30,542 nucleotides of DNA. It comes from a virus. The notes beneath the pieces are model-generated. The model was not told where the DNA came from and did not search any database. It was given only the letters and a program-made list of their open reading frames with translations. Made by a program: the position numbers and the translations under genes. The first letter of the stretch is position 1. Every line of letters begins with the position of its first letter. Below, piece after piece: positions 4,820-28,383 of the stretch. The stretch is from positions 1 to 30,542 of IMG/VR virus record IMGVR_UViG_3300031576_000233; one strand, written 5' to 3'.

Positions 4820-5355
4820 TACTTGTCCTCGTTGCGCTTGAAGCGGCGCCAACCATCGCCGTCGTACTTCCCATTCAGCTCGTGTTCGATCACGGCGCAA
4901 ACGTCGAGCGTGATATCGGCGAACGGCTTGGCCTTTGGATCGTCGGACTTGAATTCGCCATCCTCCGGCGAGTGGCACAGCCCGTAAATGGCGGACGCAG
5001 GAACCTGGGAATTCTTCAGGTCGCCGTCCTCGGCGTAGTCGCCAACGATGGCTATGCGGTCGCCCGCCCAGCGCCCAATGGTGCGCGCCGCGATCACCGG
5101 ATATTGCTCCGGCATCGGCCCGGGCGAAGTGTTGTGCTTGGGGAACGTGCGCTCCGGCCCGTGCCAATTCTCTTGAAGGTCAAGATCCCCGATGCCGCGC
5201 GCCTCAGGCATGGCCGCGGTCAAGACGACCAGCGCCGCGCCTACACCGGCGTCTCTATTTGCGAGTTGTTCCCACAGCTTCAGGCCACTGCCCAGCTTGT
5301 GGGGATTGATGAATTCCCTCTTGTCGAGGTTAACTGGAAACCGGTATTGACCCAT
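4819..5355 (-). CDS. Conserved phage hypothetical protein, 178 aa
   Basis: Starts MGQYRFPVNLDKREFINPHK with a strong GAAGGAG before the ATG at 5355. This N-terminus (MGQYxxPVNLDKxEFINPHKLG) is a pattern I recall from many phage and prophage hypothetical proteins of unknown function. The middle contains YPVIAARTIGRWAGDRIAIV, then a negatively charged region (GDYAEDGDL) and a basic C-terminus. It is likely cytoplasmic and lies in the minus-strand operon between an HTH gene and an unknown. Confidence 0.7.
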   Translation of the reverse strand: MGQYRFPVNLDKREFINPHKLGSGLKLWEQLANRDAGVGAALVVLTAAMPEARGIGDLDLQENWHGPERTFPKHNTSPGPMPEQYPVIAARTIGRWAGDRIAIVGDYAEDGDLKNSQVPASAIYGLCHSPEDGEFKSDDPKAKPFADITLDVCAVIEHELNGKYDGDGWRRFKRNEDK

Positions 5356-6251: not shown

Positions 6252-7808
6252 ATGTCGGAAATTTCTGCAGGATCGCGCGCCGCGACCGATGTCGCCGCGC
6301 TGCTGCGAGCTCGTAACCCTCTGCTGTGGATCGTGACGTGCGAAGAGGCGCGCGTCGAGCGCTTGCTTGTCGAGTCGGCGCAAGCCGCGCAATACGACCC
6401 GCGTTTTTGGGATTGCGCGACCGGCATTTCCAACTTTGCGGGCGAGCCGCGCGAGTCCGGCGCGAGCTGCACAGACCCGGCCGAAGTGTTGCGCGTGATT
6501 CGCGACAGCACGGCGCGGCAACTTTGGGTGCTGCGCGATATGCCGGCCTGGCTGCGTGACCCTTCGGTCCTGCGCTCGTTGCGTTCCCTGGCGCGATCGC
6601 TGCCCATGGCGTCGCGCGAAGAGGCGCGCGCGGTCATCCTTCTGACGCCTTCGGCGGAGATTCCTCCCGAGCTCGCCGGCCATGCGATTGTCCTGGAGTG
6701 GCCGCTGCCGGATCGCATGGAAATCGGCGCCATCCTTGACGCCGCAATTTCCGCGCTGCCCGAGGATCTGCGCGACCAGGCGGCGCAGAACGGTGCGCGC
6801 GACGCGGCGATTGATGCCGCTGTCGGGCTCACCGCCGAAGAGGCGCAATCGTGTTACGCGAAGTCGCTGGTCAGTACGCGGCGCATAGAACCTGCCGTCG
6901 TCGCCCAGGAAAAAAAGCGGGTGATCGCGCGGGAAAAAGTGCTCGAGTGGTTCGACCCCCTGCCGGGCGGGCTGGATGCGGTTGGCGGGCTGGATGCGCT
7001 CAAGGGTTGGCTGATGGGCCGGCGCGCCGCGTTTGGGCCGCGCGCTCGGGCCTACGGCCTGCCGGCGCCGAAAGGTTGCCTCCTGGTCGGCGTGCCGGGT
7101 TGCGGGAAGTCACTCACCGCGAAGGCGATCGCCACCGCCTGGGCTATGCCGCTGCTGCGTCTCGATATGGGCGCCCTCAAATCCAAGTGGGTAGGCGAGT
7201 CCGAGGGAAACATCCGCAAGGCGCTCAAGGTCGCGGAAGCGGTCGCCCCGTGTGTGCTATGGGTCGATGAGATTGAAAAGGCGCTCGCAGGCGCAACGCA
7301 AGGCGCGGCCGATGGCGGCGTATCCGGGGACGCGCTGGGCGCGGTGCTGTCCTGGATGCAGGATCGCGCGGGTTCCGTGTTCGTGGTCGCCACCGCAAAC
7401 GATGTTTCTGCGCTGCCCCCTGAACTGCTGCGCAAGGGCCGGTTTGACGAGTTGTTTTTCATCGACCTGCCGAACCGCGCCGAGCGCGTAGAGATTGCGC
7501 GGGCCTCGCTCAAATCCTACGGCCGCGCGGTCGACATCGACCTCGGCGCGGTCGCTGATGCCACTGCGGATTTTACCGGCGCAGAAATCGCGGCGCTGGT
7601 GCCCGATGCGCTCTTCGTCGCTTTTGCGGACGCGGAGCGCGCCATCGTGTCGGGCGACTTGGTGAAGGCGGCGGGCGCTACGGTGCCACTCGCGCGGACG
7701 GCAACGGAGAAAATTGCGACGCTGCGCACGTGGGCGAAAGGGCGCGCGCGGCCGGCTACAACGCCGGGCGCGAGCAATGTGCAGAGCGGCCGCAAGTTGG
7801 ATGTTTGA
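6252..7808 (+). CDS. Ycf46-like AAA+ ATPase
   Basis: A 518-residue protein matching Ycf46, a AAA+ family first known from plastids and cyanobacteria. The N-terminal ~230 residues have the Ycf46 pattern (LLRARNPLLWIVTCEEARVE, then FWDCATG, LWVLRDMPAWL and PPELAGHAIVLEWPLP). The linker VLEWFDPLPGGLDAVGGLDA leads to the ATPase core. Walker A GVPGCGKS lies at about 280-287, Walker B LWVDEIEKA at about 336-344, sensor 1 VVATAND near 380, and the arginine-finger segment LRKGRFDELFF near 393-403. GGGAG precedes the ATG. It probably remodels a protein or nucleoprotein complex. The downstream gene is a likely partner. Catalytic residues look intact. Confidence 0.88.
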   Translation: MSEISAGSRAATDVAALLRARNPLLWIVTCEEARVERLLVESAQAAQYDPRFWDCATGISNFAGEPRESGASCTDPAEVLRVIRDSTARQLWVLRDMPAWLRDPSVLRSLRSLARSLPMASREEARAVILLTPSAEIPPELAGHAIVLEWPLPDRMEIGAILDAAISALPEDLRDQAAQNGARDAAIDAAVGLTAEEAQSCYAKSLVSTRRIEPAVVAQEKKRVIAREKVLEWFDPLPGGLDAVGGLDALKGWLMGRRAAFGPRARAYGLPAPKGCLLVGVPGCGKSLTAKAIATAWAMPLLRLDMGALKSKWVGESEGNIRKALKVAEAVAPCVLWVDEIEKALAGATQGAADGGVSGDALGAVLSWMQDRAGSVFVVATANDVSALPPELLRKGRFDELFFIDLPNRAERVEIARASLKSYGRAVDIDLGAVADATADFTGAEIAALVPDALFVAFADAERAIVSGDLVKAAGATVPLARTATEKIATLRTWAKGRARPATTPGASNVQSGRKLDV

Positions 7809-7830
7809 TCAATCAAAAGGAGATGCAGCC

Positions 7831-8694
7831 ATGAGAATCAGTGTCCTGAAACCCGGCCTGCTGGTGTCGCTGAAGACTAGCGTTGCCGGCGCCGTGAAGT
7901 ACCAGCGCACGGAGCTCGAGGCCGAGCACGTTGACCAAGACGGCGCCAGCGTGGCGCGATGGGAAACTACGCGCGAAATCCCCGACCCGGCGGAATTCGA
8001 CCGCGCGACGAAAGCGCGCAGCGCTGCCCGCGCGGTGATCGCAGGAACCTGTTGCGCGTCGTCGTTCGGCCTGCTCTGCCCCACCGAAAAAGAGGGCGAG
8101 CTCCAGGCGGCCATGACCGCGGCGCAAAAGCTGGTAAACGATTTCAACATCACCGCGAAGCGCTCGCGGATCGACGTTTACGTCCTGATCGGGCGCGTAG
8201 CGGACAACGATGTCGAAGCGGCGCGCGCGATCGGCGCGGAGTTGCGCGAGTTGGTGGAACTCATGCAGGCGGGAATCAAGGCGGCGGATCCTGATGCCAT
8301 CCGCGACGCGGCGAACCGGGCGCGCGCCCTCGGCGGCATGCTCTCCGAGGATGCGGGGCGCAAGGTTAGCGAAGCCATCACCCAGGCGCGCAAGGTCGCC
8401 CGCGAGCTCGTCAAGCGCGTGCAGGGCGCCGGGGAACAGGCGGCGGTAGTCGTCTCTCAGTGCAACGTCGAAGCCATCGAGCGCGCACGCTTCGCGTTCC
8501 TCGATCTGGAGAAGTCGGACGCACCCGCGCCCGAGTCTGTGCCTGTGCCGGCGCGCGGCATTGACCTGCCGGCGCCGGGCGAAGCGTTCGCGCCGCCGGA
8601 TATGCGCGCCGCAGCGCCGCCGGATATGCGCGCCGCAGCGCCGCCGGATATGCGCGCCGCAGCGCCGCAGTCGAAGCTGCAGCTTGAGCTGTAG
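7831..8694 (+). CDS. Helical partner protein of the AAA+ ATPase with C-terminal PPDMRAAA repeats
   Basis: The ATG at 7831 has AAAGGAGA just upstream. An open frame further upstream overlaps the ATPase gene and is ignored. The 287-residue protein starts MRISVLKPGLLVSLKTSVAG, a beta-type N-terminal domain. A long helical section follows (about 60-240), with acidic and basic heptads that may form a coiled coil. A proline/alanine tail carries three exact copies of PPDMRAAA and ends QSKLQLEL. Tight spacing (22 bases) after the ATPase suggests an adaptor or substrate. The family is not recognised with certainty. Confidence 0.65.
   Translation: MRISVLKPGLLVSLKTSVAGAVKYQRTELEAEHVDQDGASVARWETTREIPDPAEFDRATKARSAARAVIAGTCCASSFGLLCPTEKEGELQAAMTAAQKLVNDFNITAKRSRIDVYVLIGRVADNDVEAARAIGAELRELVELMQAGIKAADPDAIRDAANRARALGGMLSEDAGRKVSEAITQARKVARELVKRVQGAGEQAAVVVSQCNVEAIERARFAFLDLEKSDAPAPESVPVPARGIDLPAPGEAFAPPDMRAAAPPDMRAAAPPDMRAAAPQSKLQLEL
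8591..8670 (+). repeat. Three perfect 24-bp tandem repeats plus a partial fourth
   Basis: Copies at 8591-8614, 8615-8638 and 8639-8662, and an 8-base partial copy at 8663-8670. The unit is in frame and encodes PPDMRAAA. Perfect identity suggests recent slippage expansion and probable length variation between related phages. Confidence 0.92.
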
Positions 8695-9380: not shown

Positions 9381-9754
9381 CTTCCGCCCCGCTGCTTGGG
9401 GCGGGCGGCAAGCTGCTGAGCTCGAGGCAACCCAGCGCGCCGATCGCGCGCGCCCAGCTGTGCCCATTCCCGCAGCTCGCCGGCGTCGTCCTGGTGCGCA
9501 TCCGGTCGGCACAGGGCGCACCCCCTGAAGCCTGGCGCCTCATCCTCGCCCAACGCATGGGCATCGGCCCGGAAGGCGTAGCGTTGAACCTCGACCTGCT
9601 GCGCGGCGCCAAGGGCCGCGACGTGGCGCACACCCTGCGCGAGCTCGCCCGCGGCCTGGACGCGATGGTCGATGCGGCCGAAGCCGCCCAGGCGGCCGTC
9701 CAAGCCTCGCCCGATGTTCAGCCCACCGCAGAACAGCCCCAAGCCAAGGCGTAG
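9377..9754 (+). CDS. Hypothetical protein, 125 aa
   Basis: Coupled to the previous gene (ATGA). The middle has QLAGVVLVRIRSAQGAPPEA followed by alternating strand/helix and a helical C-terminus (ELARGLDAMVDAAEAAQAA). The last part overlaps the start region of the small-terminase gene. No domain recognised. Confidence 0.5.
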   Translation: MTSAPLLGAGGKLLSSRQPSAPIARAQLCPFPQLAGVVLVRIRSAQGAPPEAWRLILAQRMGIGPEGVALNLDLLRGAKGRDVAHTLRELARGLDAMVDAAEAAQAAVQASPDVQPTAEQPQAKA

Positions 9755-10499
9755 GCGGCTCCAGGGCAGCGCTGCCACCGCCGGCCAGCCTACCCCACGC
9801 CCCAGCCCCCAGGCAGCGCCAGCGCGGCCCACGCCGCGCGTCTCGCCACCATCGAGTCCACCACCAGCAGACCCTGCACCAGAAACCCGGGAAGACTCGC
9901 CCGCTCTGGCCTTGCTCTCCGACCCAGGTGCAGGTGCACCCCAAACCGCGCTCTACGACCTCCGCCCACAGTTCGACGCCCCAACCCCGCAATTGCCTCC
10001 CGAGCTCGCCGACCCGCTCAACGCCCGCGAGCTGCGCACCGTCTGGCTGATGGTCGCCGGCCGGACCTACGCCCAAGCCCTGGACGAGTGCAACATCCCA
10101 CCACGCGCCGCCCTCCGCGACTCAGGTCCGCCGCCGTACGTCAGGGCTGCAGTGGACGAACTGATTAGACAGGTGGCAGCTAGTTGCGCAATCTCGCGAA
10201 CGTGGATTTTGATCAACTTGGTCGCGATCTATAGGCGGGCCTCGATGGGCGAGCCAGTCGTGGACCGCCGCGGCGCGCGCACAGGAGAGTGGCGCTTCGA
10301 CGGTTCCACCGCAGTCAAGTGCTTGGAATTGCTTGGAAATCAGGCAGGTATGTTTGGTAAGCGAGTGGTGCACGACGTACCCAACGAGGTCCGTGATCTG
10401 ATGCGAGCTGTCGCAGCTCGAGGTCGACCGGCCCTGGGTGCACATGGCCGGCCGCGCCTTGTCGGATCCGATGATGCAACGCCGCAAACAGCCGATTAA
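9714..10499 (+). CDS. Probable terminase small subunit
   Basis: Residues after a long Pro/Ala-rich N-terminal stretch read PELADPLNARELRTVWLMVA (an HTH-like start), then YVRAAVDELIRQVAASCAIS, TWILINLVAIYRRA and STAVKCLELLGNQAGMFGKR. This order (DNA-binding helix, then KxLELLGxxxGMF) is the hallmark of small terminase subunits, which select the genome end for packaging. The start is uncertain: ATGs at 9672, 9687 and 9714 are all in frame. 9714 gives the shortest overlap. The large subunit gene lies about 5.5 kb downstream, an unusual separation. The proline-rich N-terminus is longer than typical. Confidence 0.75.
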   Translation: MFSPPQNSPKPRRRRLQGSAATAGQPTPRPSPQAAPARPTPRVSPPSSPPPADPAPETREDSPALALLSDPGAGAPQTALYDLRPQFDAPTPQLPPELADPLNARELRTVWLMVAGRTYAQALDECNIPPRAALRDSGPPPYVRAAVDELIRQVAASCAISRTWILINLVAIYRRASMGEPVVDRRGARTGEWRFDGSTAVKCLELLGNQAGMFGKRVVHDVPNEVRDLMRAVAARGRPALGAHGRPRLVGSDDATPQTAD

Positions 10500-10996
10500 C
10501 CTCGAAGTCACGCGAGCGAATGAGCGTAAGCGCATGATCGCCCTCAATTGGTGCAGTGCAATGTCAATCAAGCGCCATTATGTTAAACCGGCTAACTCGT
10601 TGACTATCCAGAACATAGTGCCGGATCGCTGCACCAAGCCTGTGGCGCCACGTGCCAGGCACGCGGCCCATGCCTGCAAGCGAGGCCCTGGAGCTTCGCT
10701 GGTGCAAGCGCTCGCTCACGCTGCACGACCGCGCGCGCGTGGCGAGCCGTGGCCTGCTGGGTGGGGGTGGGGGCAGTCGCCACGCCACGCCCCACACCGG
10801 CCCGCGCGATTCAGTACCGTCCCTATCCCCACCGCGCCCCGTTTTCCAGATCTTCAACCGGTGGCCTTTGAGACGGTACCGGTGGAATTTTTTCGCCACG
10901 TTTTGACGAATTTGACATGTGGTCTCGCGTGGCGTCGAGCGCGAGCTCGGCGCAGGGTTGTAGGCCGGTAGCACTGCAAGGTGCTGAACAGCAGCC

Positions 10997-11010
10997 CGGT
11001 GCTAGCACCG
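10997..11010. repeat. Perfect 14-bp palindrome
   Basis: CGGTGCTAGCACCG is its own reverse complement. It is a candidate protein-binding or strand-opening site 15 bases before the hexamer array. Confidence 0.8.
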
Positions 11011-11024
11011 TAACCCCCGTGAAG

Positions 11025-11060
11025 TTGAGCCTGAGCTTGAGTCTGAGCCTGAGCTTGAGA
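11025..11060 (+). repeat. Six tandem YTGAGN hexamers
   Basis: In order: TTGAGC, CTGAGC, TTGAGT, CTGAGC, CTGAGC, TTGAGA, with a partial TGAG after them. They lie between the palindrome and the 9-bp repeats. Confidence 0.85.
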
Positions 11061-11083
11061 TGAGTGGCCCAGCCATGACTAAC

Positions 11084-11128
11084 AGGCCAAGTAGGCCAAG
11101 TAGGCCAAGCCGGTCAAATAGGTCAACA
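11084..11128 (+). repeat. Five 9-bp iteron-like repeats
   Basis: AGGCCAAGT, AGGCCAAGT, AGGCCAAGC, CGGTCAAAT, AGGTCAACA, directly adjoining. The first three differ by one base and the last two are diverged. Spacing of exactly 9 bp places all copies in regular helical register, as in plasmid and phage replication origins. Confidence 0.8.
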
Positions 11129-11156
11129 TGTCCATGGACGTTCAATGACATCCAAT

Positions 11157-11185
11157 TTGACAAGAACTATCAACACCACGATGAT
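11157..11185 (+). promoter_or_regulatory. Promoter with perfect -35 just before the SSB-like gene
   Basis: TTGACA (11157-11162), 17-base spacer, GATGAT (11180-11185). A start point six to eight bases downstream would fall at or beside the ATG at 11193, so the message may have little or no leader. Confidence 0.45.
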
Positions 11186-11192
11186 CGCCTTC

Positions 11193-11540
11193 ATGCTGGA
11201 CGTGCTGATCGGTGGGGTGATGATCAAAGACCCGGTGTCGCGGGTAGGGAAAAGTGGGAAGGAGTACGCGACGTTTTTCGTGCGGGCGCCGTGTGATGGA
11301 GAGGATGCAGTGTTGGTGTCGGCGATCGTGTTTTCCCCGGAGCCTGTTGCGCAGGTGCTAGCGCTGGGCAAGGGAGACGCGGTATCGTTCGCGGGGTCCG
11401 CCAAGTTGACGAATTGGACGAAAGCTGATGGCAGCGTGCATCATGGAATCGGCGTCACCGTGTCGCAGATATTGAGCTCGTACCACGTCCAGAAAAAACG
11501 CCGGGTGATGGCTGGCGCTGAACAACAAGAGGAGGGCTGA
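11193..11540 (+). CDS. SSB-like single-stranded DNA-binding protein
   Basis: From the ATG at 11193 the protein begins MLDVLIGGVMIKDPVSRVGK, the standard start of short phage/prophage SSB-type OB-fold proteins (xxLIxGxLxxxPxxRTGKxG). It continues EYATFFVRAP, VLVSAIVF, LGKGDAVSFAGSAKLTNWTK and ends in a basic tail. Length 115, shorter than bacterial SSB, without the acidic SSB C-terminal tip. No Shine-Dalgarno is visible. In-frame ATGs at 11145 and 11181 are possible but the family start favours 11193. It would protect single strands at the adjacent candidate origin. Confidence 0.72.
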   Translation: MLDVLIGGVMIKDPVSRVGKSGKEYATFFVRAPCDGEDAVLVSAIVFSPEPVAQVLALGKGDAVSFAGSAKLTNWTKADGSVHHGIGVTVSQILSSYHVQKKRRVMAGAEQQEEG

Positions 11541-11544
11541 CTCT

Positions 11545-12351
11545 ATGTTCGCCAAGTTGTTCCAGTCGATGTACGACGGCACACTGGGCACAAGGGGGCC
11601 GTGGGAAGCCCTGGTGACCTTCCAGCAAATGCTCATCCTCGCGGATCGCTTCGGGGATGTCGACATGACCATCGAAGTGATTCAGCGGCGAACACAAATC
11701 CCGCTCGAAATCCTGACACGCGGCGTGGAGGAACTGCTCAAGCCGGATCCAGACAGCCGAGACACCAGCGAGCGAGGCAGGAGAATCGTGCCGCTGGAAG
11801 ACAGCAGATCATGGGGCTGGCACATCGTGAACTACGGCCGGTACTCTCAAATCCGCAGCGCGGAAGAGCGCCGGGAGTACAAGGCGAACTGGTACCGGGA
11901 ACAAAAAGCCGGGAAGACCACCACCCAGGAACCAAAGCCGGCCACGCCGACGAAAGAAAAAGGCAACGGCGAGGATAAGGAGGTTTCCGGCGCCGCGGTG
12001 TGGGTAGCCTACGAAACCGCCTACCGTGCGCGCTGGGGAGTTGCCCCCGCACGAAACGCGAAGACCAACGCGCTGTGCAAACGCTTCGCCGGCACGTTGC
12101 CAGCTGCAGAAGCGCCGCTGGTCATACGGTTTTTCCTGCAATCCAACCGAGGCCTGTACGTCGCCGCGAAGCACGACCTCGCGCTCGCTCTGCGGGACGC
12201 GCAGGCGTTGCGCACCGAGTGGATGCGGGGCGAACACGGCACCGACGCCGGTGCGCGCCAGGGCGATCGCACCGCGGCGCGCTACGAAGCATTTCGCCCC
12301 ATGATCGAAGAAGCAAATCAACGCGAAGGAGGAGAAAATGGCAAAGGATGA
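11545..12351 (+). CDS. Phage replication initiation/organiser protein
   Basis: A 268-residue protein. The N-terminal ~100 residues (MFAKLFQSMYDGTLGTRGPW, then TIEVIQRRTQIPLEILTRGV) resemble a winged-helix replisome-organiser domain. A charged linker (about 115-150) follows. The C-terminal domain WVAYETAYRARWGVAPARNA, then FFLQSNRGLYVAAKHDLALA and LRTEWMRG, is a module I know from proteobacterial phage replication proteins. It likely binds the origin and recruits helicase. It starts four bases after the SSB stop and overlaps the next gene by 14 bases. Confidence 0.72.
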   Translation: MFAKLFQSMYDGTLGTRGPWEALVTFQQMLILADRFGDVDMTIEVIQRRTQIPLEILTRGVEELLKPDPDSRDTSERGRRIVPLEDSRSWGWHIVNYGRYSQIRSAEERREYKANWYREQKAGKTTTQEPKPATPTKEKGNGEDKEVSGAAVWVAYETAYRARWGVAPARNAKTNALCKRFAGTLPAAEAPLVIRFFLQSNRGLYVAAKHDLALALRDAQALRTEWMRGEHGTDAGARQGDRTAARYEAFRPMIEEANQREGGENGKG

Positions 12352-12634
12352 TGGTGGGCCGGCTTTCCCGATCGCGAACGAAACCGGCATGCACCGGTGG
12401 GCGTTGGCGAACAGGGCGGACGAGACCGAGGAATCCTACATTGCGGCCTACGCTATCGCTGCCTCCGGCATGAGCCTGCGCGATCACTTCGCCGGGGAGG
12501 CCATTCCCATCGTGTTCGCACAACTCGACTCTACCAATCCCCTCGCCACACAAAATCGACCATTGCAAGTGCTCGCCGCGAAGATCTGCTACGAAATCGC
12601 CGACGCCATGCTCGCGGAGCGACGCCGTGAATGA
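12338..12634 (+). CDS. Conserved GGPAFP phage protein, 98 aa
   Basis: Starts MAKDDGGPAFPIANETGMHR with AAGGAGGAG upstream. The sequence GGPAFP then GMSLRDHFAGEAI, and a final YEIADAMLAER, is the signature of a very widespread phage/prophage protein of unknown function. Its copy number in phages is high but no biochemistry is assigned. It overlaps genes on both sides in the replication block. Confidence 0.8.
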   Translation: MAKDDGGPAFPIANETGMHRWALANRADETEESYIAAYAIAASGMSLRDHFAGEAIPIVFAQLDSTNPLATQNRPLQVLAAKICYEIADAMLAERRRE

Positions 12635-12878
12635 CCTCCAAGAACTCCCAGCGATGTCGAATGAGCAATTTGCGCTTGCGATTCTGGCGGCCGAGGGGAA
12701 AATTTCCGATGCAGTAAAAGGCGAGGCTGTGGCCGTGGTGATAGCGGCCTTGACCAGCATTCTTGGAAAAGCACTCGCCGTGTACGCAAGAAAAAACCAA
12801 CTGGAATCGGCGATTGAAATTGCCATCGTTGGTATGCGTGAATCGGCCGCCACCGAGCTGGAGGGCGGTCATGCCTAG
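12627..12878 (+). CDS. Hypothetical protein, 83 aa
   Basis: Overlaps the GGPAFP gene by eight bases and the next gene by eight. Composition is helical (MNDLQELPAMSNEQFALAIL, then a long valine/alanine helix EAVAVVIAALTSILGKALAV). The hydrophobic stretch could be a membrane helix or a packed core. No domain recognised. Confidence 0.55.
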   Translation: MNDLQELPAMSNEQFALAILAAEGKISDAVKGEAVAVVIAALTSILGKALAVYARKNQLESAIEIAIVGMRESAATELEGGHA

Positions 12879-13458
12879 CCGTCGCCTGCTCGAGGCTGTA
12901 GCCGTGTGCTGCGAGCTCACGGGCACCGACCTGTCCACGGGCGCGGCGCGCGCGCTCACCGCCGATCTGTCGCAATACCCGGAGGATCAGGTGCTCGGCG
13001 CGCTGCAGCGCTGCCGGCGGGAGTTGCGTTCGCGCCTCACCCTCGCTGACATACTTTCTCGCCTGGACGATGGTCGCCCGGCGCCGGAAGAGGCGTGGTC
13101 CATGGTGCCGCGCGCCGAGGATGCGAGCTGCTTCTGGACGAGCGAAATGCGCGAAGCGTTCTTCGTCGCCTACCCGCTGGTAAAAGAAGGTGAACTGGTG
13201 CAGGCCCGCATGGCGTTCTTGGAGGCTTACCGCGGCAAGGTGCAGTTGGCGCGCGACGCCTCACTCCCGGTGAAGTGGGAGTTTTCCCCAGGGCACAGCA
13301 AAGACGGTCGCGAGCTCGCGCTGCTCGACGCAGTGGAAAAAGGCCGGCTCAGCGTCACCGACGCCGCCAACCTTCTCCCGAACCACCGTGAGGACGTGGT
13401 GTTGACCGCGCGCCTCCTCGCGCTCGCCAAGCGCGCGCTCCCGGCACTCCCGCGATGA
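12871..13458 (+). CDS. Conserved phage hypothetical protein, 195 aa
   Basis: Starts MPSRRLLEAVAVCCELTGTD. Sequence features such as LSQYPEDQVLGALQRCRREL, LTLADILSRLDDGRPAPEEA and MVPRAEDASCFWTSEM match a protein often found beside replication genes in proteobacterial phages. Its role is usually unstated and it may assist replication loading. The start at 12871 overlaps the preceding gene by eight bases and the stop overlaps the protease ATG. Confidence 0.7.
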   Translation: MPSRRLLEAVAVCCELTGTDLSTGAARALTADLSQYPEDQVLGALQRCRRELRSRLTLADILSRLDDGRPAPEEAWSMVPRAEDASCFWTSEMREAFFVAYPLVKEGELVQARMAFLEAYRGKVQLARDASLPVKWEFSPGHSKDGRELALLDAVEKGRLSVTDAANLLPNHREDVVLTARLLALAKRALPALPR

Positions 13459-14000
13459 ACTGGTGGTCTTTCACCTGGTTCGTGATCGCCCTCGCCGTCC
13501 TCTATTTTCCCGTGCTGTGGCTGTGCCTCATCGCTGGCACTCTCGTCTTTCCTTTCCTATTTCTCGCGAACGCCGAGCGCTGGGTCGCGCCGCCGTCCTA
13601 CGTCGTCGACCTGATCGAGCGCTCCGGGGTTCCGGCGGTCGAGCTCTACATCGACAACATCAAACAGAACGACACGTTGCCCATACATTGCGCTGCGTTT
13701 GCTTGCGCGCTTTTCCCGAGGCGCCACGTGATCGTGTTCGACGAGGAATTCCTGCGCGTAGCTTCCAGCGTGCAAGTCATGTTCGTCCTGGGCCACGAAC
13801 TGGGACACCACAAGATGGGGCACACGCGCCTGCTCGCCAAAATCAAGGAATTGACCAGGTTCACCTTCGGATTGCATTTGGCATGCGCGGAGTACGACCT
13901 GGATTTCCGCGAGGCCGCGGCGGACGAATACGCGCGGTTGTTGACCGGCTGCCCGCAAACGGTACTCCATGGACTGCGCTTCCCATCCTCAAACCGTTGA
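13455..14000 (+). CDS. M48-like membrane zinc metalloprotease
   Basis: A 181-residue protein with a hydrophobic N-terminus containing about two membrane segments (residues 6-38) and a catalytic domain. HELGH at 114-118 supplies two zinc ligands and the catalytic glutamate. The third ligand is probably Glu153 in FREAAADEYA, matching the ExxAD pattern of M48 (HtpX/Ste24-like) proteases. It is shorter than typical HtpX (about 290) and lacks extra membrane helices. The gene overlaps the previous stop (ATGA). It is likely an inner-membrane protease acting on host or phage proteins. The substrate is unknown. Confidence 0.8.
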   Translation: MNWWSFTWFVIALAVLYFPVLWLCLIAGTLVFPFLFLANAERWVAPPSYVVDLIERSGVPAVELYIDNIKQNDTLPIHCAAFACALFPRRHVIVFDEEFLRVASSVQVMFVLGHELGHHKMGHTRLLAKIKELTRFTFGLHLACAEYDLDFREAAADEYARLLTGCPQTVLHGLRFPSSNR

Positions 14001-14313
14001 CTTGTTCCACGTAGAACGACACCCGCTGGCATTCGATCCGCCGCCGCGCTTCTCCCCGTCGATCGAGGGCACACGCTGCCGATGCGAAGCATGCTCGCCC
14101 GAGGATCCCGGGCCGACCTACACCGAGGCGTACCGGCATCTGTGCGAAGTCCGCTCGGTGGAAAACATGGACCCCGTGGCGCGGGCGTGGTATCTCGACA
14201 GGAACAAAAACAAGCGAGCCGACAGGATCATGGCGTCGATGAGCGAGCATTCGCTCGAGACATGGGCTACCGAGTTGGAGCTGCAGTGTGGCCATCTGGC
14301 CGATCACGAGTAG
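13969..14313 (+). CDS. Conserved phage protein with a CxCxxC motif, 114 aa
   Basis: Begins MDCASHPQTVDLFHVERHPL and carries RCRCEACSPEDPGPTYTEAY, then RHLCEVRSVENMDPVARAWY. The segment TYTEAxRHxCExRxVxNM is one I associate with small phage proteins of unknown function from the same replication neighbourhood. Cysteines may bind metal. The start overlaps the protease gene by 32 bases and no strong ribosome site is visible, so the true start could be slightly downstream. Confidence 0.6.
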   Translation: MDCASHPQTVDLFHVERHPLAFDPPPRFSPSIEGTRCRCEACSPEDPGPTYTEAYRHLCEVRSVENMDPVARAWYLDRNKNKRADRIMASMSEHSLETWATELELQCGHLADHE

Positions 14314-14806
14314 ACGCGGCGGGCGCCTGGTCCGCTACCTCGCCGATTACGTCGGGGTAAGCGAGGAGCGTTTCCGTGCCACGCTGAAGATGCGCAAGCT
14401 CGCAAAGCGAGCGGCTTACTATAGAAAATACAAACGGCGGTACCGGACTGGCGAAAGGAGAACGCGGGCGGTGAAGTCGCACTTCGAGCGCAAATACGCC
14501 TATGCTCCAATGTCGGAGTTTTGGGGATTGATGCAGACGGCGAGGCTGACGATAAAGGAGTTCTGTGCGCTGGCAGGGATCTCGACCACGAGTTTTTATA
14601 ACTGGTACGGCTTCCCGATGCACAAGTGGCCGATCGAACTGCTGCGCGCGCACATCTGGTCGCGTAACATGTCCGAGTACCTGCTGAAAAAAGGCGTCGA
14701 TACCGCGCAGTTCAAGGCCACACTACCGCCGCTCTCGGCCCCCGGCAGCCGGGCGCTCACCGAACGCGGTGTTCCGAAAATCGCCGGCATGGACAAGGAG
14801 GAGTGA
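14288..14806 (+). CDS. HTH DNA-binding protein, 172 aa
   Basis: Residues 86-108 (RLTIKEFCALAGISTTSFYN then WYG) form a helix-turn-helix with a tail HKWPIELLRAHIWSRNM, as in phage Cro/repressor-like and late regulators. The preceding part is strongly basic (YYRKYKRRYRTGERRTRAVK). It overlaps the previous gene by 26 bases. A role as transcriptional regulator, perhaps of the late structural block that follows, is inferred from position. Confidence 0.6.
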   Translation: MAIWPITSRRGGRLVRYLADYVGVSEERFRATLKMRKLAKRAAYYRKYKRRYRTGERRTRAVKSHFERKYAYAPMSEFWGLMQTARLTIKEFCALAGISTTSFYNWYGFPMHKWPIELLRAHIWSRNMSEYLLKKGVDTAQFKATLPPLSAPGSRALTERGVPKIAGMDKEE

Positions 14807-14807
14807 C

Positions 14808-15065
14808 GTGGAAAACGTGATGTTCAAAGTGGAGCACGAACAGGTCGGCCGGAACGAGTACAACATGGAGAAGACAACGCGCGTGATCGTTGTCGCTAAG
14901 GAACGGCCACTTCTCGGCCTCGCGGAGGCGAGACAGGCGAAGGTCGAACTCGAGGACGCTCTCACTGCCCTCGTTGCCTCGTATCGGCGCTGCGTGAGTG
15001 CGCACGTCGTCGAGGTCACCGGCGAAGAGATCGACAACCGCGTGACGGTGACGGTGGCCCTGTGA
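14808..15065 (+). CDS. Hypothetical protein, 85 aa, GTG start
   Basis: GTG at 14808 lies four to five bases after AAGGAGGAG. An internal ATG at 14820 is less well placed. The protein reads MENVMFKVEHEQVGRNEYNM, then TTRVIVVAKERP, a charged helix, and a strand pair AHVVEVTGEEIDNRVTVTVA. Its mixed alpha/beta make-up suggests a compact soluble protein. Function unknown. Confidence 0.55.
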   Translation: MENVMFKVEHEQVGRNEYNMEKTTRVIVVAKERPLLGLAEARQAKVELEDALTALVASYRRCVSAHVVEVTGEEIDNRVTVTVAL

Positions 15066-15418
15066 GTTTCTCCCCGCCGCCGGACCGCGTGGCGCTCAGC
15101 GCGGCCGCACGCAAGCACCTTCCGGGCGCCGACGTCGTGCACGTCTTTGAAATGATGCCAGGCCATGAGCCATGGAAGCTGCTCGCACGTATCCTGCCAA
15201 ATAAAGTATCCGTGCAGCACTTCGGGGACGACGAGCTCCAGGGCGCCTGCGTCAAGGCAGCGAAGGAACTGGAAATCGCGTTCGAGCATGACCACGAAAC
15301 GCGATTCCAGACCGATCACCGCATTGCCGCACGGTTCTCGATTCGTGGTCGAGACACGTGGTCTGCGCCACATGCAGCACAAGGTGAAGAAAGGTGTCGG
15401 TGTGCTGAAAGAAATTGA
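15062..15418 (+). CDS. Hypothetical protein, up to 118 aa; C-terminal end uncertain
   Basis: GTG at 15062 overlaps the previous stop (GTGA). The N-terminal 90 residues look natural (DVVHVFEMMPGHEPWKLLAR, then ACVKAAKELEIAFEHDHETR). The last ~20 residues (SAPHAAQGEERCRCAERN) look like out-of-frame translation, and the next gene overlaps by 131 bases without a ribosome site. A further single-base shift joining the two frames is possible but unproved. Confidence 0.5.
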   Translation: MSFSPPPDRVALSAAARKHLPGADVVHVFEMMPGHEPWKLLARILPNKVSVQHFGDDELQGACVKAAKELEIAFEHDHETRFQTDHRIAARFSIRGRDTWSAPHAAQGEERCRCAERN

Positions 15419-15491
15419 GGAAGTGTCGGACAATCACCTCGAGCAAGGAGAGGGCTGTTACCGCACGCAGCCGGTCCTGTACGACGAATAG
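15288..15491 (+). CDS. Hypothetical protein, 67 aa (or continuation of the previous gene)
   Basis: The frame from 15288 gives MTTKRDSRPITALPHGSRFV, then HMQHKVKKGVGVLKEIEEVS and a final QPVLYDE. An ATG at 15372 is an alternative start. Neither has a clear ribosome site. The C-terminal half is natural-looking. It may be an independent gene, or the true end of the 15062 gene after a one-base shift. Confidence 0.45.
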   Translation: MTTKRDSRPITALPHGSRFVVETRGLRHMQHKVKKGVGVLKEIEEVSDNHLEQGEGCYRTQPVLYDE

Positions 15492-15518
15492 GAGGGGGAC
15501 AACCTGAAGGAGAAGACC

Positions 15519-15845
15519 ATGCAATCGAAATTCGCGGAAACGGCACAGCATTTCAGCCGCGTAGCCGCTGCATTGCTGGAAAGCGGAGCAAGGAAGGCGA
15601 CGTTGTACCTGTCGCAGAAGTTGACGGTGAAGGCATCCGTTCCGATCTACGCGCCGCGGGACAAGAAGGGGGTGCGCAAGTACCCGAAGAAGGTGCACGA
15701 CATGCGCAGCAGCCGCGTGGAGATTCTCTTCACTTCCGGGGCTCCAAACTTCGAGGAACGATACTTCATCCGCCAGGCGGTGAAGGCGGGAGAGCCGTTT
15801 CCGGTGAAGAAGATTCAACTGAAGTTCCTGCCCGGCACGGCGTAG
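15519..15845 (+). CDS. Hypothetical protein, 108 aa
   Basis: ATG at 15519 follows AAGGAGAAG. The protein begins MQSKFAETAQHFSRVAAALL and contains KATLYLSQKLTVKASVPIYA, a basic strand-rich region (RDKKGVRKYPKKVHDMRSSR) and FIRQAVKAGEPFPVKKIQLK. Basic charge suggests nucleic-acid contact. Family unknown. It ends one base into the GTG of the next gene. Confidence 0.6.
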   Translation: MQSKFAETAQHFSRVAAALLESGARKATLYLSQKLTVKASVPIYAPRDKKGVRKYPKKVHDMRSSRVEILFTSGAPNFEERYFIRQAVKAGEPFPVKKIQLKFLPGTA

Positions 15846-16039
15846 TGGCGAGCCCGTTCGTAGAGCTCGATGCGCAGGTCAATGAGTGGCTGACCATTGA
15901 TCTGCGCAATCACTATGACGACGAACTGGATTTCGTTATCGTCGTCCCTGGATTCGGCCAGAAGCATCGCGCGGGGCTGGATTGCTGGTGCGAGCCGTTG
16001 GAAGATGACGGCGTGATCGTTCACAACGGATCGCACTGA
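15845..16039 (+). CDS. Hypothetical protein, 64 aa, GTG start
   Basis: GTG at 15845 overlaps the preceding stop by one base (TAGTG) and its own stop overlaps the TerL ATG by one base (TGATG). The acidic sequence includes LDAQVNEWLTIDLRNHYDDE, then FVIVVPGFGQKHRAGLDCWC. Translation of TerL is probably coupled to it. No family recognised. Confidence 0.55.
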   Translation: MASPFVELDAQVNEWLTIDLRNHYDDELDFVIVVPGFGQKHRAGLDCWCEPLEDDGVIVHNGSH

Positions 16040-17616
16040 TGCCTTTCGACCCGCCGCCGCAGGAACCTGTCCTCGGGGAACGCGCCCCCACGGAGGCATC
16101 TGCGGCGGCGGGGGTTGTGGACGTAGCGGTAGTCGATCAGTTCGCCGACAAGCGTTGGCGCATGGCGAACCTGTACTACATCCTCAACGAGTTGAATCAG
16201 GAAGTGAAGTTCGTCCCGAATGAAATGCAGGCGAAGTTTTGGGTCGAGATGTGGTACCTAAACCTGATTCTGAAGGGCCGGCAGCACGGCTTCACCACCT
16301 TCATTGACCTCTATATTCTCGACGAGTGTATCTGGCACCCGAACCAGGTCGGCGGCATCATCGCCCACACGCTGGACGATGTGCGCAAGATCTTCCGACG
16401 CAAGATCAAGTACCCCTACGATCGCTTGCCAGAGCAGATCAGGCAGGCGAATCCGGCGACGAACGACAGCGCGCAGGAGCTCATCTTCGCCAACAAGAGT
16501 GAAATCAGCGTCGGCACATCCATGCGCGCCGGCACGTTGTCGTACCTGCACGTTTCGGAGTTCGGAATTATTTCGCACAAGTATCCGGAGAAGGCCGAGG
16601 AGATCAAGACCGGATCCTTCAACACCGTGCATCAGGGAAGCTATATCTGGGTCGAGTCGACCGGCTATGGCAAGGGCGGTGAATTTCACGACATGGTGAC
16701 CAAGGCGATGAACAATCGCCGGCAGGGGAAGCCGCTCACCAAGATAGATTTCAAACTGCATTTCTATCCGTGGTGGGTGAACAGCAAGTACAAGCTTCCG
16801 ATGGAGGATGCGCGCAGCGTAGTCTTTACCCGCGAGCAGAACAGCTACTTCACTCGCGTGGAGAAGCTGACTGGCACGAGGCTCGATTTCCAGCAGCGCG
16901 CGTGGTACGTCAAGAAAAAGGAATGGAACGGCGAATTGATGTTCCGGGAATATCCAAGCACTGACAAAGAGCCGTTCGATGCCGTGATCCGCGGCGCGGT
17001 GTTTGGCTCGCAGATGGCCAAGGCCCGCGAGGAGGGCCGCGTGACCAGGGTGCCACACGATCCCGCGCTCGGCGTGGATACCTGGTGGGATCTCGGGCTT
17101 CGCAACAAGATGGCGATCTGGTTCGTGCAGCAGTTCGGCATGCAATTCCGCTTCATCTACTACCACGAGGTCGAGAACGAATCGCTCGAGTGGCACATCA
17201 GGCTGCTTGCGCAACTCAAGGACGCGAACAAGTGGAACTACCGGCATCACCTTGGGCCGCACGACCTGGAAGTGCGCGACATGTTCACGAAGAAGACGCG
17301 CTTCATGCAGGCGAAGGCTGCGGGCCTGACCTTCATCGTAGGCAAGCAGTGGGACATCGACGATCAGATCGAGGCCGGCAAAAACCTGATCCCGATGTGC
17401 TGGTTCGACGAGGAAAACTGCGATGTAGGAATCTCGCGGCTGGAGAATTACCGCTTCGAGTGGAACGAGAGCCTGCAGAGCTACACGAAAGAGCCGCGCC
17501 ATGACGAGAATTCCCACGCATCCTCGGCGTTCATGAGGGGCGCGATGCAAGCTGGCGTCGGTGGCCAGGGCAGCACCCGGGCGCGCGCCGTCCAGGAAAT
17601 AAAATTCGCAACGTAA
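16039..17616 (+). CDS. terL: Terminase large subunit (packaging ATPase/nuclease)
   Basis: 525 residues. The ATPase domain has a variant Walker A, KGRQHGFTT (79-87), of the KxRQxGFTT type used by several phage terminases, and a Walker B-like strand LSYLHVSEFG with Glu near 174. The nuclease domain (from about 345) has GVDTWWDLGLRNKMAIW with Asp347/351, GPHDLEVRD near 410-420, and HDENSHASSAF near 488-498, the three acidic clusters of an RNase H-like fold. It pumps DNA into the procapsid through the portal and cuts the concatemer. The small subunit is far upstream (9714). Start coupled to the previous gene. Confidence 0.93.
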   Translation: MPFDPPPQEPVLGERAPTEASAAAGVVDVAVVDQFADKRWRMANLYYILNELNQEVKFVPNEMQAKFWVEMWYLNLILKGRQHGFTTFIDLYILDECIWHPNQVGGIIAHTLDDVRKIFRRKIKYPYDRLPEQIRQANPATNDSAQELIFANKSEISVGTSMRAGTLSYLHVSEFGIISHKYPEKAEEIKTGSFNTVHQGSYIWVESTGYGKGGEFHDMVTKAMNNRRQGKPLTKIDFKLHFYPWWVNSKYKLPMEDARSVVFTREQNSYFTRVEKLTGTRLDFQQRAWYVKKKEWNGELMFREYPSTDKEPFDAVIRGAVFGSQMAKAREEGRVTRVPHDPALGVDTWWDLGLRNKMAIWFVQQFGMQFRFIYYHEVENESLEWHIRLLAQLKDANKWNYRHHLGPHDLEVRDMFTKKTRFMQAKAAGLTFIVGKQWDIDDQIEAGKNLIPMCWFDEENCDVGISRLENYRFEWNESLQSYTKEPRHDENSHASSAFMRGAMQAGVGGQGSTRARAVQEIKFAT

Positions 17617-20872: not shown

Positions 20873-22588
20873 ATGCCCGGCGTAGTCAAGCATGCTCTCG
20901 TAGCGACGACGCCTGACGACCCAGCGTATGAAATCCGACCGTCGCACTGGAACAACACCCACGCCGTAACGCTCAATGCCGTAGGCTCTGAACTGACCGG
21001 GGCATTCTCTAATTCCAACGGCCTGTCGTTTGGACTGGAGGGGGGCGGGGCGATCACCGGCAGCTACACCGTGCCCTCCACGGCGGGGCTGCTTTCCAAC
21101 ATCAAACTCTCGGCCGGGACGCTTTCCCAGCTTCGCTCCGATGTCACTTTTTCCAACGCCAACGGGGTCAGCTTCGGGCTGGAGACGAACGGCGTCGTTA
21201 CAGCGAGCATAGGCGCTGGGGGCGCACCGGGCTCGATTTCGGCCGGCACCACACGCTTCGCCCTCGGCGAAGCGGTGTTCTCAAACTCCAACGGCATCAG
21301 CTTCGGCCTGAACGGAGCCACCGTCACTGCTTCTCACAACGGGATCTCGAACGTCAACGTCTCCGCCGGCACGACCAGCAACAACCTCTCGAATGTCGTT
21401 TTCTCAAACTCGAACAATGTCAGTTTCGGGTTGAATGGTTCCACGGTCACAGCGACGGCGACCGTGGTCTCTACTCAAGGCTCGATCAACCTCTCGGCAG
21501 GAACGACCTCGAACCTCGCCTCGGCGTTCACGTTCTCGAACTCGAACGGGGTCTCCTTCGGCCTTAACGCCTCGACTATCACGGCTTCGGTTGCGACCTC
21601 GCTCACCAATATCCTGGTATCGGCGGGAACGACATCGAACCTGCGCTCCAACATCACATTCTCTAACGTCAATGGGGTGTCTTTCGGCTTGAACGCTGGC
21701 ACGATCACCGCCTCGCACAACGGGCTGACCTCGCAATCGACGAACTTCCTCGCTATCACGCTAGGCGGCAATACCGCAGGCACCACCACTTTCCACGCCA
21801 CCAACAACCAGACGATCTGGTTGAACGGCGGGGCGAACGTCACGCTCTCTGGTAACGGCTCCACGATCACGATCTCGGCGGCTGCGGGCGGAGGCGGGGG
21901 TGCCCCCACGTTGTCTCGGTGGATGAACTTGATAATTGGGCCGGGGGATACCGACAACTTTGGGGAAGCAGGTGTTTCTTTTGCCACTTCCAATGCGACC
22001 TTGATGCTGATTCCGCTAGTTCCGGGGCAAAATCTCTTTCCCGGTAACATGACGGTGAGCACTGCCTTCATTAAAATGAGCGGGAACCATAGTGTCGCAA
22101 CTGCATCGACAGCGGCAAAGACTTACCGCGTTTCGTTAGGTATCTACACGCAAGTCAACTCTACACAACTGAGTCTGTTGAACTCTGTATCTACGTCATT
22201 TGGAACGGGCGCAGCTGCAAGCAACCAAACCGCTTCTTACCACGGCCAACGGTATATATCTATCCACTCCAGTGACTGGAGTGCTCAGCCTTCATTTTCG
22301 CAAACGCTCTATTACTTGGGGTATTGGATTCGGTCTTCTGGCGAGTCTTTCGCGCTTTCATGGTTTGGCGCTCGCCCACCTTATCACGGCGCCCAATTTT
22401 CCGGCACGATGGGAATCTCGTCGGCAACCAATACATCGCGTGGACATTTCCCCTGGGCCGGGGCCTACAGCGTGAGCTTTACTACAGCGATGCCTAATAC
22501 TATCGGCCCATCAGAAATTAACAAAAATGCTGGTTCGGCGGGCGGGTTTCCCATGATAATTTTCGAAAACTATGCGAGCGTATTCTAA
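20873..22588 (+). CDS. Repeat-rich tail fibre / tail spike protein
   Basis: 571 residues. The N-terminus VVKHALVATTPDDPAYEIRP then SHWNNTHAV is a common start of phage tail and structural proteins. Residues about 45-275 contain six near-copies of FSNSNGVSFGL, each separated by SAGTTSNL and TITAS-type segments, a likely trimeric beta-repeat shaft. A glycine hinge (GGGGGAPTL, near 338-346) leads to a ~225-residue C-terminal domain rich in Ser/Thr/aromatics, with lower GC than the shaft, the probable receptor-binding tip. No lyase active site is evident. Confidence 0.75.
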   Translation: MPGVVKHALVATTPDDPAYEIRPSHWNNTHAVTLNAVGSELTGAFSNSNGLSFGLEGGGAITGSYTVPSTAGLLSNIKLSAGTLSQLRSDVTFSNANGVSFGLETNGVVTASIGAGGAPGSISAGTTRFALGEAVFSNSNGISFGLNGATVTASHNGISNVNVSAGTTSNNLSNVVFSNSNNVSFGLNGSTVTATATVVSTQGSINLSAGTTSNLASAFTFSNSNGVSFGLNASTITASVATSLTNILVSAGTTSNLRSNITFSNVNGVSFGLNAGTITASHNGLTSQSTNFLAITLGGNTAGTTTFHATNNQTIWLNGGANVTLSGNGSTITISAAAGGGGGAPTLSRWMNLIIGPGDTDNFGEAGVSFATSNATLMLIPLVPGQNLFPGNMTVSTAFIKMSGNHSVATASTAAKTYRVSLGIYTQVNSTQLSLLNSVSTSFGTGAAASNQTASYHGQRYISIHSSDWSAQPSFSQTLYYLGYWIRSSGESFALSWFGARPPYHGAQFSGTMGISSATNTSRGHFPWAGAYSVSFTTAMPNTIGPSEINKNAGSAGGFPMIIFENYASVF

Positions 22589-25714: not shown

Positions 25715-26206
25715 ATGCTGAGTACGGAGCAGCGTCGTCAACGAGCGTGCCAAGCAACGGCGCGGTGGAAGGAGCGTAACCAGGAAAAGGTTAAGGCATG
25801 GCGCGAAGCGAACCCCGAGAAGGTAAAGGCAATGGGGCAACGCTATTACCTGAAGAACGCAGAAAAAAGGAAGGCCCGGGCAACGGCTTGGCGAAAAGCA
25901 AACCCACGACGGACAAAGGAGATGATGCTGAAGATTAAGTTCGGCATCAACCACGACGAGTACGACGCGCTACTTAGGCAGCAAGAGGGCCTATGCGCGG
26001 TCTGCCGTCAGCCTGAAAAGGCCGCGCATCATTCGCGCTGGGGAAGCAACGGCAAGCTGCGAGCCCTCGCCGTCGATCACGATCACGTCACCGGTAAGGT
26101 CCGCGGTTTGCTCTGTTCTTCTTGCAATGGTGCGCTCGGTCAATTGCGCGAGAGCGTTGAAATCATCGAACGTCTTAGGGCGTACTTGTTGAAGGTGCGC
26201 CAATGA
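25715..26206 (+). CDS. HNH / recombination endonuclease VII-type nuclease
   Basis: 163 residues. The C-terminal domain has zinc ligands Cys94 and Cys97 (LCAVC), the catalytic DHDH at 121-124 (LAVDHDHVTGKVRG) and Cys134/Cys137 (LCSSC), the endonuclease VII/His-Me finger layout. The N-terminal 70 residues carry basic WR(E/K)ANP repeats typical of mobile phage endonucleases. It sits alone in a virion gene run, seven bases after one gene and overlapping a 14-codon frame after it. It probably cuts branched or target DNA and behaves as a mobile free-standing endonuclease. Confidence 0.85.
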   Translation: MLSTEQRRQRACQATARWKERNQEKVKAWREANPEKVKAMGQRYYLKNAEKRKARATAWRKANPRRTKEMMLKIKFGINHDEYDALLRQQEGLCAVCRQPEKAAHHSRWGSNGKLRALAVDHDHVTGKVRGLLCSSCNGALGQLRESVEIIERLRAYLLKVRQ

Positions 26207-27705: not shown

Positions 27706-28383
27706 AGCCTTTAATTTTGGGGATGTAAAACCCTCTCTGAACATCATGGAAAACGTCATCAAAGACGCAACCAGAGGGAACCTGCCTCCCAAGTTCACCT
27801 GGGACTACGTTGCTGGTTTCTTCGACGGAGAAGGGTGCATCGACGTGCAGAAGATGTACCCGAAGGGCGCGCACCAGGGCCAGTTGTATGTCCGGCCGAG
27901 GCTGCGTCTTTGCCTTTCGATTGTCGGCCTCGATTTGCTCACGCAATTGCGCGATCAATTCGGCGGTCATCTTTGCCACCGCAAGGGACATGGGAACGCC
28001 AAACCTTCCGTGTCCTGGGAAATTCTGAACGAGGCGGATATGCGGCGCTTTCTGTCGCGATTCTCCGACAAGCTCGTTCTGAAGCGAGAGCAGGCCAGGC
28101 TCGCCCTGTGGTGGCTGGAGAACGTGAAGGGGCGCCAGAAGCACCTTCACGGCGACATCTGCGCGGCGCGGCACGCTTTCGTCGAAGAACTGCGCGCGAT
28201 GAAGCAGGACCCGCAGAGACTGAGCGAGAGGGCGACGCAGTGTATCGCTGCGTTGATGCGACAGTCCGACCTCCATAGCGATGTGGAGACCATGGCGGAA
28301 ACGACCATGGCGCGCGCGGCATGAGAAAACTTCTTCTCATCCTCGCGTTCATTGCGCTTACTCCGGCGCAAAGCAACAGCAAG
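27706..28383 (+). ncRNA. Group I self-splicing intron in the major capsid gene
   Basis: Length 678 bases. P1: CATCCCT (27699-27705) with GGGGATG (27719-27725), with the splice-site U pairing with G. P10: exon-2 GAAAT (28384-28388) with ATTTT (27714-27718). P3: CCCTCTC (27731-27737) with GAGAGGG (28226-28232). P5: CGTC/GACG (27754-57, 27764-67). P6: GGG and CCTGC (27776-27785) with GCAGG and CCC (28204-28212). P7: GACTG (28218-28222) with CAGTC (28262-28266). P8: CGACGCAG (28233-28240) with CTGCGTTG (28248-28255). P9-type hairpins follow at 28271-28288, 28290-28310 and 28321-28340. The intron ends in the required G (28383). P4 is only weakly drawn. The endonuclease frame fills L6. Confidence 0.9.
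27746..28324 (+). CDS. Single-motif LAGLIDADG homing endonuclease, intron-encoded
   Basis: 192 residues. Residues 21-33, YVAGFFDGEGCID, are the LAGLIDADG helix with the catalytic acid. Then LRLCLSIVGLDLLTQLRDQF, VSWEILNEADMRRFL and ALWWLENVKGRQKHLH give the usual DNA-binding saddle. Only one motif is visible, so it likely works as a homodimer that cuts intron-free capsid genes at the exon junction, copying the intron. It overlaps core helices P5 to P9. No Shine-Dalgarno before the ATG. The P3 strand lies just upstream, so translation may be limited while the RNA is folded. Confidence 0.88.
   Translation: MENVIKDATRGNLPPKFTWDYVAGFFDGEGCIDVQKMYPKGAHQGQLYVRPRLRLCLSIVGLDLLTQLRDQFGGHLCHRKGHGNAKPSVSWEILNEADMRRFLSRFSDKLVLKREQARLALWWLENVKGRQKHLHGDICAARHAFVEELRAMKQDPQRLSERATQCIAALMRQSDLHSDVETMAETTMARAA

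Follow-up and report, generated by a model that had tools for sequence, protein, structure and literature searches.

Is the stretch of repeats that lies in front of the replication genes of this phage its origin of replication? The DNA analysed here, which we call the window, spans an entire virus record (IMG/VR UViG_3300031576_000233; 30,542 bases; linear class) and has phage-like genes for terminase, portal and capsid. An earlier note had seen in it an origin-like arrangement of a palindrome, six hexamers and five 9-bp iterons. That view is supported, as relatives of the adjacent initiator carry the same pair of iterons and hexamers, from which we infer origin activity. With a probability of about three in four, the segment 10997-11173 is a replication origin of the iteron type, laid out on a lambda-like plan, with hexamers where lambda has its AT-rich tract.

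Two repeat arrays and their setting

The repeats follow a terminase-small-like gene (9672-10499) and precede an SSB-like gene (11145-11540, forward strand). The first of them, a perfect 14-bp palindrome, CGGTGCTAGCACCG, at 10997-11010, is real, but its proposed part as an origin element is doubtful: it carries no evidential weight, because perfect palindromes of at least 14 bp number 4 in the window, where 3.1 are expected by chance. The two arrays that follow are of another kind. Six tandem hexamers TGAGNN (CTCAAG/CTCAGG type on the reverse strand) occupy 11026-11059 with an exact spacing of 6 bp, a seventh TGAG standing off register at 11061; their period-6 score is 24/30, when the maximum is 21 both in 100 simulated windows and elsewhere in the window. 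Five 9-bp iterons of the AGGCCAAGT type, at which the 11545-12351 product may bind, extend over 11084-11128 and read, in order, AGGCCAAGT, AGGCCAAGT, AGGCCAAGC, CGGTCAAAT and AGGTCAACA; they score 28/36 at period 9, with maxima of 26 in 100 simulated windows and 22 elsewhere in the window. Both arrays are detected by TRF, they are the strongest of period 6 and of periods 8 to 12 in the 30.5 kb, and none of 2000 simulated 645-bp regions attained either threshold, so that the hexamers and the regular 9-mers are confirmed as the earlier note had described them. Strong repeats are confined to 10997-11128, none of like strength being seen in 10500-10990. A search of viral_contigs with the exact pattern of the 9-mer array gave no match.

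Calling this region gene-free was a fair reading: two ORFs overlap it (10438-10971 and 11060-11296), both unsupported, and a PHROG search with the second gave no match. Rfam and tRNA scans came out empty, as did a blastn comparison of positions 10000-16000 with phages. Compositional bias was of little help. GC skew shows a trough at about 10.3-11.2 kb, but the cumulative curve over the record has no usable inflection: the trough is only local, the global extremes sit at the record ends and a linear-class record is often a fragment, which makes the skew uninformative.

By sequence, the iterons are flanked on one side by the hexamers and on the other by an AT-rich stretch (11114-11173); among all 60-mers of the window this stretch ranks second for low stability, when the hexamer tract stands at about the 11th percentile. 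This difference in stability suggests a variant of the origin reading, which we see as possible but the less probable course: the duplex would open at 11114-11173, and the hexamers would be an array of start sites for the host primase, at CTG, or a spacer. The AT-rich stretch also overlaps a sigma-70-like promoter, recognised by sequence match (TTGACA-17-GATGAT, 10/12, 11157-11185, forward strand).

Other features of the window may be recorded here. The replication module lies, unusually, between the terminase small-like and large-like (16039-17616) genes. ORF 7714-8694 contains near its end a 24-bp unit in 3.3 perfect copies (8590-8668), which encodes APPDMRAA repeats, and a putative tail-fibre-like protein (20873-22588) displays many FSNSNGVSFGL repeats. 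ORFs 25715-26206 and 27746-28324 resemble, by eye, homing endonucleases (HNH-like; LAGLIDADG-like motif GFFDGEG), the latter directly preceding the major capsid gene.

The initiator gene and its neighbours

The arrays had been placed before SSB-like and replication-organiser genes. Their upstream position stands, 417-519 bp from the start of an initiator-like gene, while the SSB assignment is weak: the product of 11145-11540, with its uncertain start codon, matches PF00436 under the curated cut-off (E=5e-4) and phrog_44 at E=0.01. Its relatives were searched for in viral_contigs and among phages and none was found; a model of its fold was too poor (pLDDT 48) and was set aside.

The initiator-like gene is at 11545-12351 (forward strand). 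The C-terminal half of its product matches proteins of 20 phage records, several annotated as replication initiation, some of them O-like, and others as transcriptional regulator, helix-turn-helix or hypothetical protein; the direct PHROG match of the product is a family of unknown function. An iteron-type phage origin is recognised by tandem direct repeats near an initiator gene and by a cognate initiator of the O-like, DnaD-like or primosomal kind, and both are found here. No Pfam or PHROG family corresponds to the N-domain by itself (residues 1-102), which is shared with phage initiators that have other C-domains, of phrog_9474 (locus L002, where the N-domain is 67% identical to that of the window) and phrog_678 (L003, L006). 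An AlphaFold2 model built on a 16-row alignment is confident over residues 21-100 or so, with pLDDT above 90 over most of them, and its elements follow one another as in a winged helix. Its structural matches are mostly winged-helix proteins, including plasmid initiators (4pt7_B, Z 6.2; 1hkq_A, Z 6.2), and among the PDB matches listed none stands out, the top Z being 7.8 and all below 8. The domain is thus predicted to be winged-helix-like. Further on, the gene at 12874-13458 (forward strand; phrog_6028, to which no function is assigned) sits at a possible helicase-loader position. Downstream of a relative of this gene, at L012:9848-9910, about seven 9-bp repeats, GTAGCAAGT, encode VAS repeats.

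The array pair is conserved while its site moves

Absence of the repeats from relatives with the same genes would have spoken against an origin. The pair is present, either upstream of the initiator gene (L002, L044, L095) or within it. L002 displays, in order, hexamers (AGTCTGAGTATGAGTCTGAGTATGAG), 9-bp repeats, a 12/12 promoter in the same place as that of the window, and the initiator gene; its arrays and initiator are not separated by an SSB gene. At L044 a non-coding module occurs twice, 10-bp iterons being followed by GCAGAG/GCAGAT hexamers, and at L095 GTGGAT iterons precede (GCAGAT)7, also in non-coding DNA, about 0.6 kb from its initiator, which is distantly related and encoded on the other strand. 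Identity to the window's initiator is 37% over 143 aa and 35% over 79 aa, respectively. These two loci were located via the hexamer pattern, the other family members via protein homology; the hexamers of L044 and L095 are therefore present by construction, when their iterons, non-coding place and initiator are independent of that selection. Two loci from a TerL search (L009, L010) were left out, as the region upstream of the initiator was absent from what aligned.

In many relatives the pair follows the N-domain inside the gene. GTAACG-type iterons then precede (ACAGAT)4-8, encoding (TD)n; in other members GTGGAC-type iterons precede (GCAGAG)5, encoding (AE)n; further members have CTCAAC 9-mers with a weak purine tract. 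L014 carries in its gene 9-mers followed by ACTCAT/ACTCAG (the L002 hexamers in reverse complement), an array that is short and non-significant alone (p=0.39). Altogether a period-6 array is significant (p<=0.05) in 15 of the 17 members tested, some of them near-identical, L003 (iterons present, no clear hexamers, p=0.25) and L014 missing the threshold. Iterons reach p<=0.05 on the 5' side of the hexamers in 10 members; in the window and L002, where the modules are inverted, they do so on the 3' side (a 3' periodic match in L027 is the hexamer array itself). In L027, L029, L030 and L031 the 5' iterons beside the hexamers fall below significance.

The promoter shared by the window and L002, directly beside the iterons in both, invites another explanation, namely that the 9-mers are an operator: the initiator, or a repressor, would bind them and control the promoter at 11157 of an SSB/initiator operon, a regulatory role and not an origin. 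L003 fits this account, with an inverted repeat, GTTGAGACTCAAC, just before the initiator ATG (about 4974-4986), in which the CTCAAC iteron core is inverted; by its sequence this is a typical autoregulatory layout, like that of autoregulated plasmid initiators. We nevertheless consider it improbable that regulation is the whole story, as many relatives have their arrays in-gene, where an operator would be of little use, and the hexamer tract has no place in such a model. Besides, operator and origin roles may coexist, as in iteron plasmids.

It could also be argued that the arrays are codon repeats, leader peptides here and acidic linkers elsewhere, kept by protein selection or slippage. Open frames do span both arrays in the window, readable as (LS)n and (RPS)n, with hexamer variation synonymous in one frame, and L002 has ORFs of 65 and 52 aa across its array. 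Yet frames and peptides differ between the window and L002, and the L044 and L095 modules lie outside initiator genes. Moreover, in nine members met by protein homology the Thr and Ala codons of the array end in A in 49 of 49 cases, as against 25% elsewhere in the same genes. This makes the codon account very improbable, the more so in view of the wider survey of the hexamer described below.

A hexamer shared by phage initiators

A scan of IMG/VR for (RCAGAK)5 returned at least 120 loci, and the figures given here apply among the matches listed; as a control we used (RCSGAM)5, which encodes the same peptides with different codons and has 120 loci among the matches listed. The (T/A)(D/E) frame is the longest in 104/120 loci, when it is in 46/120 of the control, and complete ORFs that are 180-380 aa long and have the array at residue 80-200 number 73/97 versus 15/95. 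Fifteen of 20 loci taken at random from the 120 listed have a replication PHROG match, and one of the remaining five, L113, is related to the window's initiator family. With the arrays removed, 64 C-terminal and 63 N-terminal parts from the first 80 listed loci still find most of their matches among families of replication initiation, primosomal and DnaD-like proteins; in the 46 sense ORFs of the control, head proteins and proteases lead and replication families have 1-3 members each. A periodicity of 8-23 bp is present in the 100 bp 5' of the hexamers in 49/101 dereplicated listed loci and on the 3' side in 6/101, whereas the control has no side bias (14/103 and 19/103); full flanks were available for 111/120 RCAGAK and 109/120 control loci. 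Without dereplication the counts, among the matches listed, are 64/113 (5') and 8/119 (3'). The spacing of the 5' iterons is mostly 11 bp (27/49), which is about one helical turn and not a multiple of the codon length. That spacing, and the fact that (RCSGAM)5 occurs, among the matches listed, mainly in other genes, argue again against codon repeats. RCAGAK arrays thus lie mostly in replication initiators, with iterons far oftener on their 5' than on their 3' side, which suggests a rule, and the hexamer type is under constraint at the DNA level, even if slippage could explain part of the codon uniformity within arrays.

Some loci differ in layout. At L067 the hexamers run antisense in a gene that looks DUF1376-like by eye and encode (SA)n, while the arrays at L050:218-247 and L062:473-502 lie outside any 100-aa ORF, that of L050 being followed by an inverted repeat around GCTAGC. 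Eight phages with named initiators were examined (L282-L289): DC33 has (ACAGAG)4 after GATATCAA iterons, YMC11/07/P54 and the YdaU gene of Rac-SA53 have 2-3 hexamers, phi297 has (ACAGGG)5 and PBR31 broken copies; hexamers were not seen in SPN1S, TL-2011b and Cy-LDV1. The position of oriJ of the Rac prophage relative to ydaU was sought and not found. Nine named O-like phages recognised by C-domain homology (L033-L041) contain other in-gene repeats, of 17, 22-23 and 12-13 bp; no long RCAGAK array was seen in them, and ACAGAG copies occur in two. The Pseudomonas lambdoid members of this set (L033, L034, L038, L040) have their 17- and 22/23-bp repeats, of the GCAGATGCTGCACCC type, inside O-like genes. 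In the open-access literature we found no report of such hexamers in phage initiators, and 'unreported' is provisional to that extent.

How does the window fit in? Judged by sequence, its hexamer (CTCA/TGAG) seems only a cousin of RCAGAK, linked to it through L002, L014 and a shared position, and it would be its functional equivalent; which strand corresponds to RCAGAK is ambiguous, and the assignment is taken from L014. CTCA-type arrays were also looked for in 398 bacterial genomes: 23 have a match, none of the 23 beside an initiator, and most of the matches are (EP)n or (HE)n genes, so that the CTCA type is not supported as a general motif and the variant rests on the window, L002, L014 and position.

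The hexamers as primase start sites can now be weighed as well. DnaG prefers CTG, and the complement of RCAGAK has CTG every 6 nt. However, CTG is found in only part of the hexamers of the window and L002, and across families the hexamers adjoin iterons on a fixed side.

The reading that we prefer remains an iteron-type origin, which might work as follows. The winged-helix N-domain of the initiator would bind the five 9-bp iterons and multimerise; the duplex would then open on one side of them, either at the hexamers, a candidate strand-opening or loading tract, or at the AT-rich tract 11114-11173, and the helicase would be loaded at the opened tract. The less stable and promoter-bearing 11114-11173 may be the opening site, or only a promoter. 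Were the hexamers the opening or loading tract, this would explain why one motif is kept while iterons and initiators diverge. One may go further and propose that a directional RCAGAK array, with rarer variants including CTCA, is a strand-opening or helicase-loading element shared by iteron origins across phage initiator families, usually placed in a (Thr/Ala-Asp/Glu)n linker within the gene and here non-coding, a phage counterpart of the DnaA-trio; we regard the odds of this generalisation as even. The rule of iterons followed by a hexamer array of fixed polarity could then locate the origins of many uncultured phages, and the TDTDTD/TETETE linkers of phage replication proteins would be recast as DNA elements. 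Where the copies are free-standing (window, L002, L044, L095), mutating the hexamer would leave every protein intact, which makes origin opening directly testable.

Known systems offer three comparisons. The array pair of the window is best read as a plan related to that of lambda ori. In lambda-type origins the tract is needed for unwinding, and the window resembles them by its direct repeats with an adjoining candidate opening tract and by an initiator with its own DNA-binding domain (PMC7466680); many relatives of this initiator also carry their arrays in-gene. Ori lambda proper lies within the O gene, whereas the module of the window is outside the initiator gene, 417-519 bp upstream and inverted, with 9-bp iterons and an adjoining tandem hexamer. 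The DnaA-box and DnaA-trio system is alike in having double-strand sites with a polar short tandem motif on one flank (PMC10201434, PMC10797057). It differs in that the window has no sign of DnaA, that its motif is TGAGNN (RCAGAK elsewhere) and not 3'-GAT-5' trios beside DnaA boxes, and that single-strand reading of the hexamer is hypothetical; this would be a likeness of working, not membership. Finally, iteron plasmid origins share with the locus a winged-helix-like initiator domain, iterons and an inverted repeat before the gene of the kind seen in L003, while the two-part gene, with its phage O-like or primosomal C-domain, and the hexamer tract set it apart from them.
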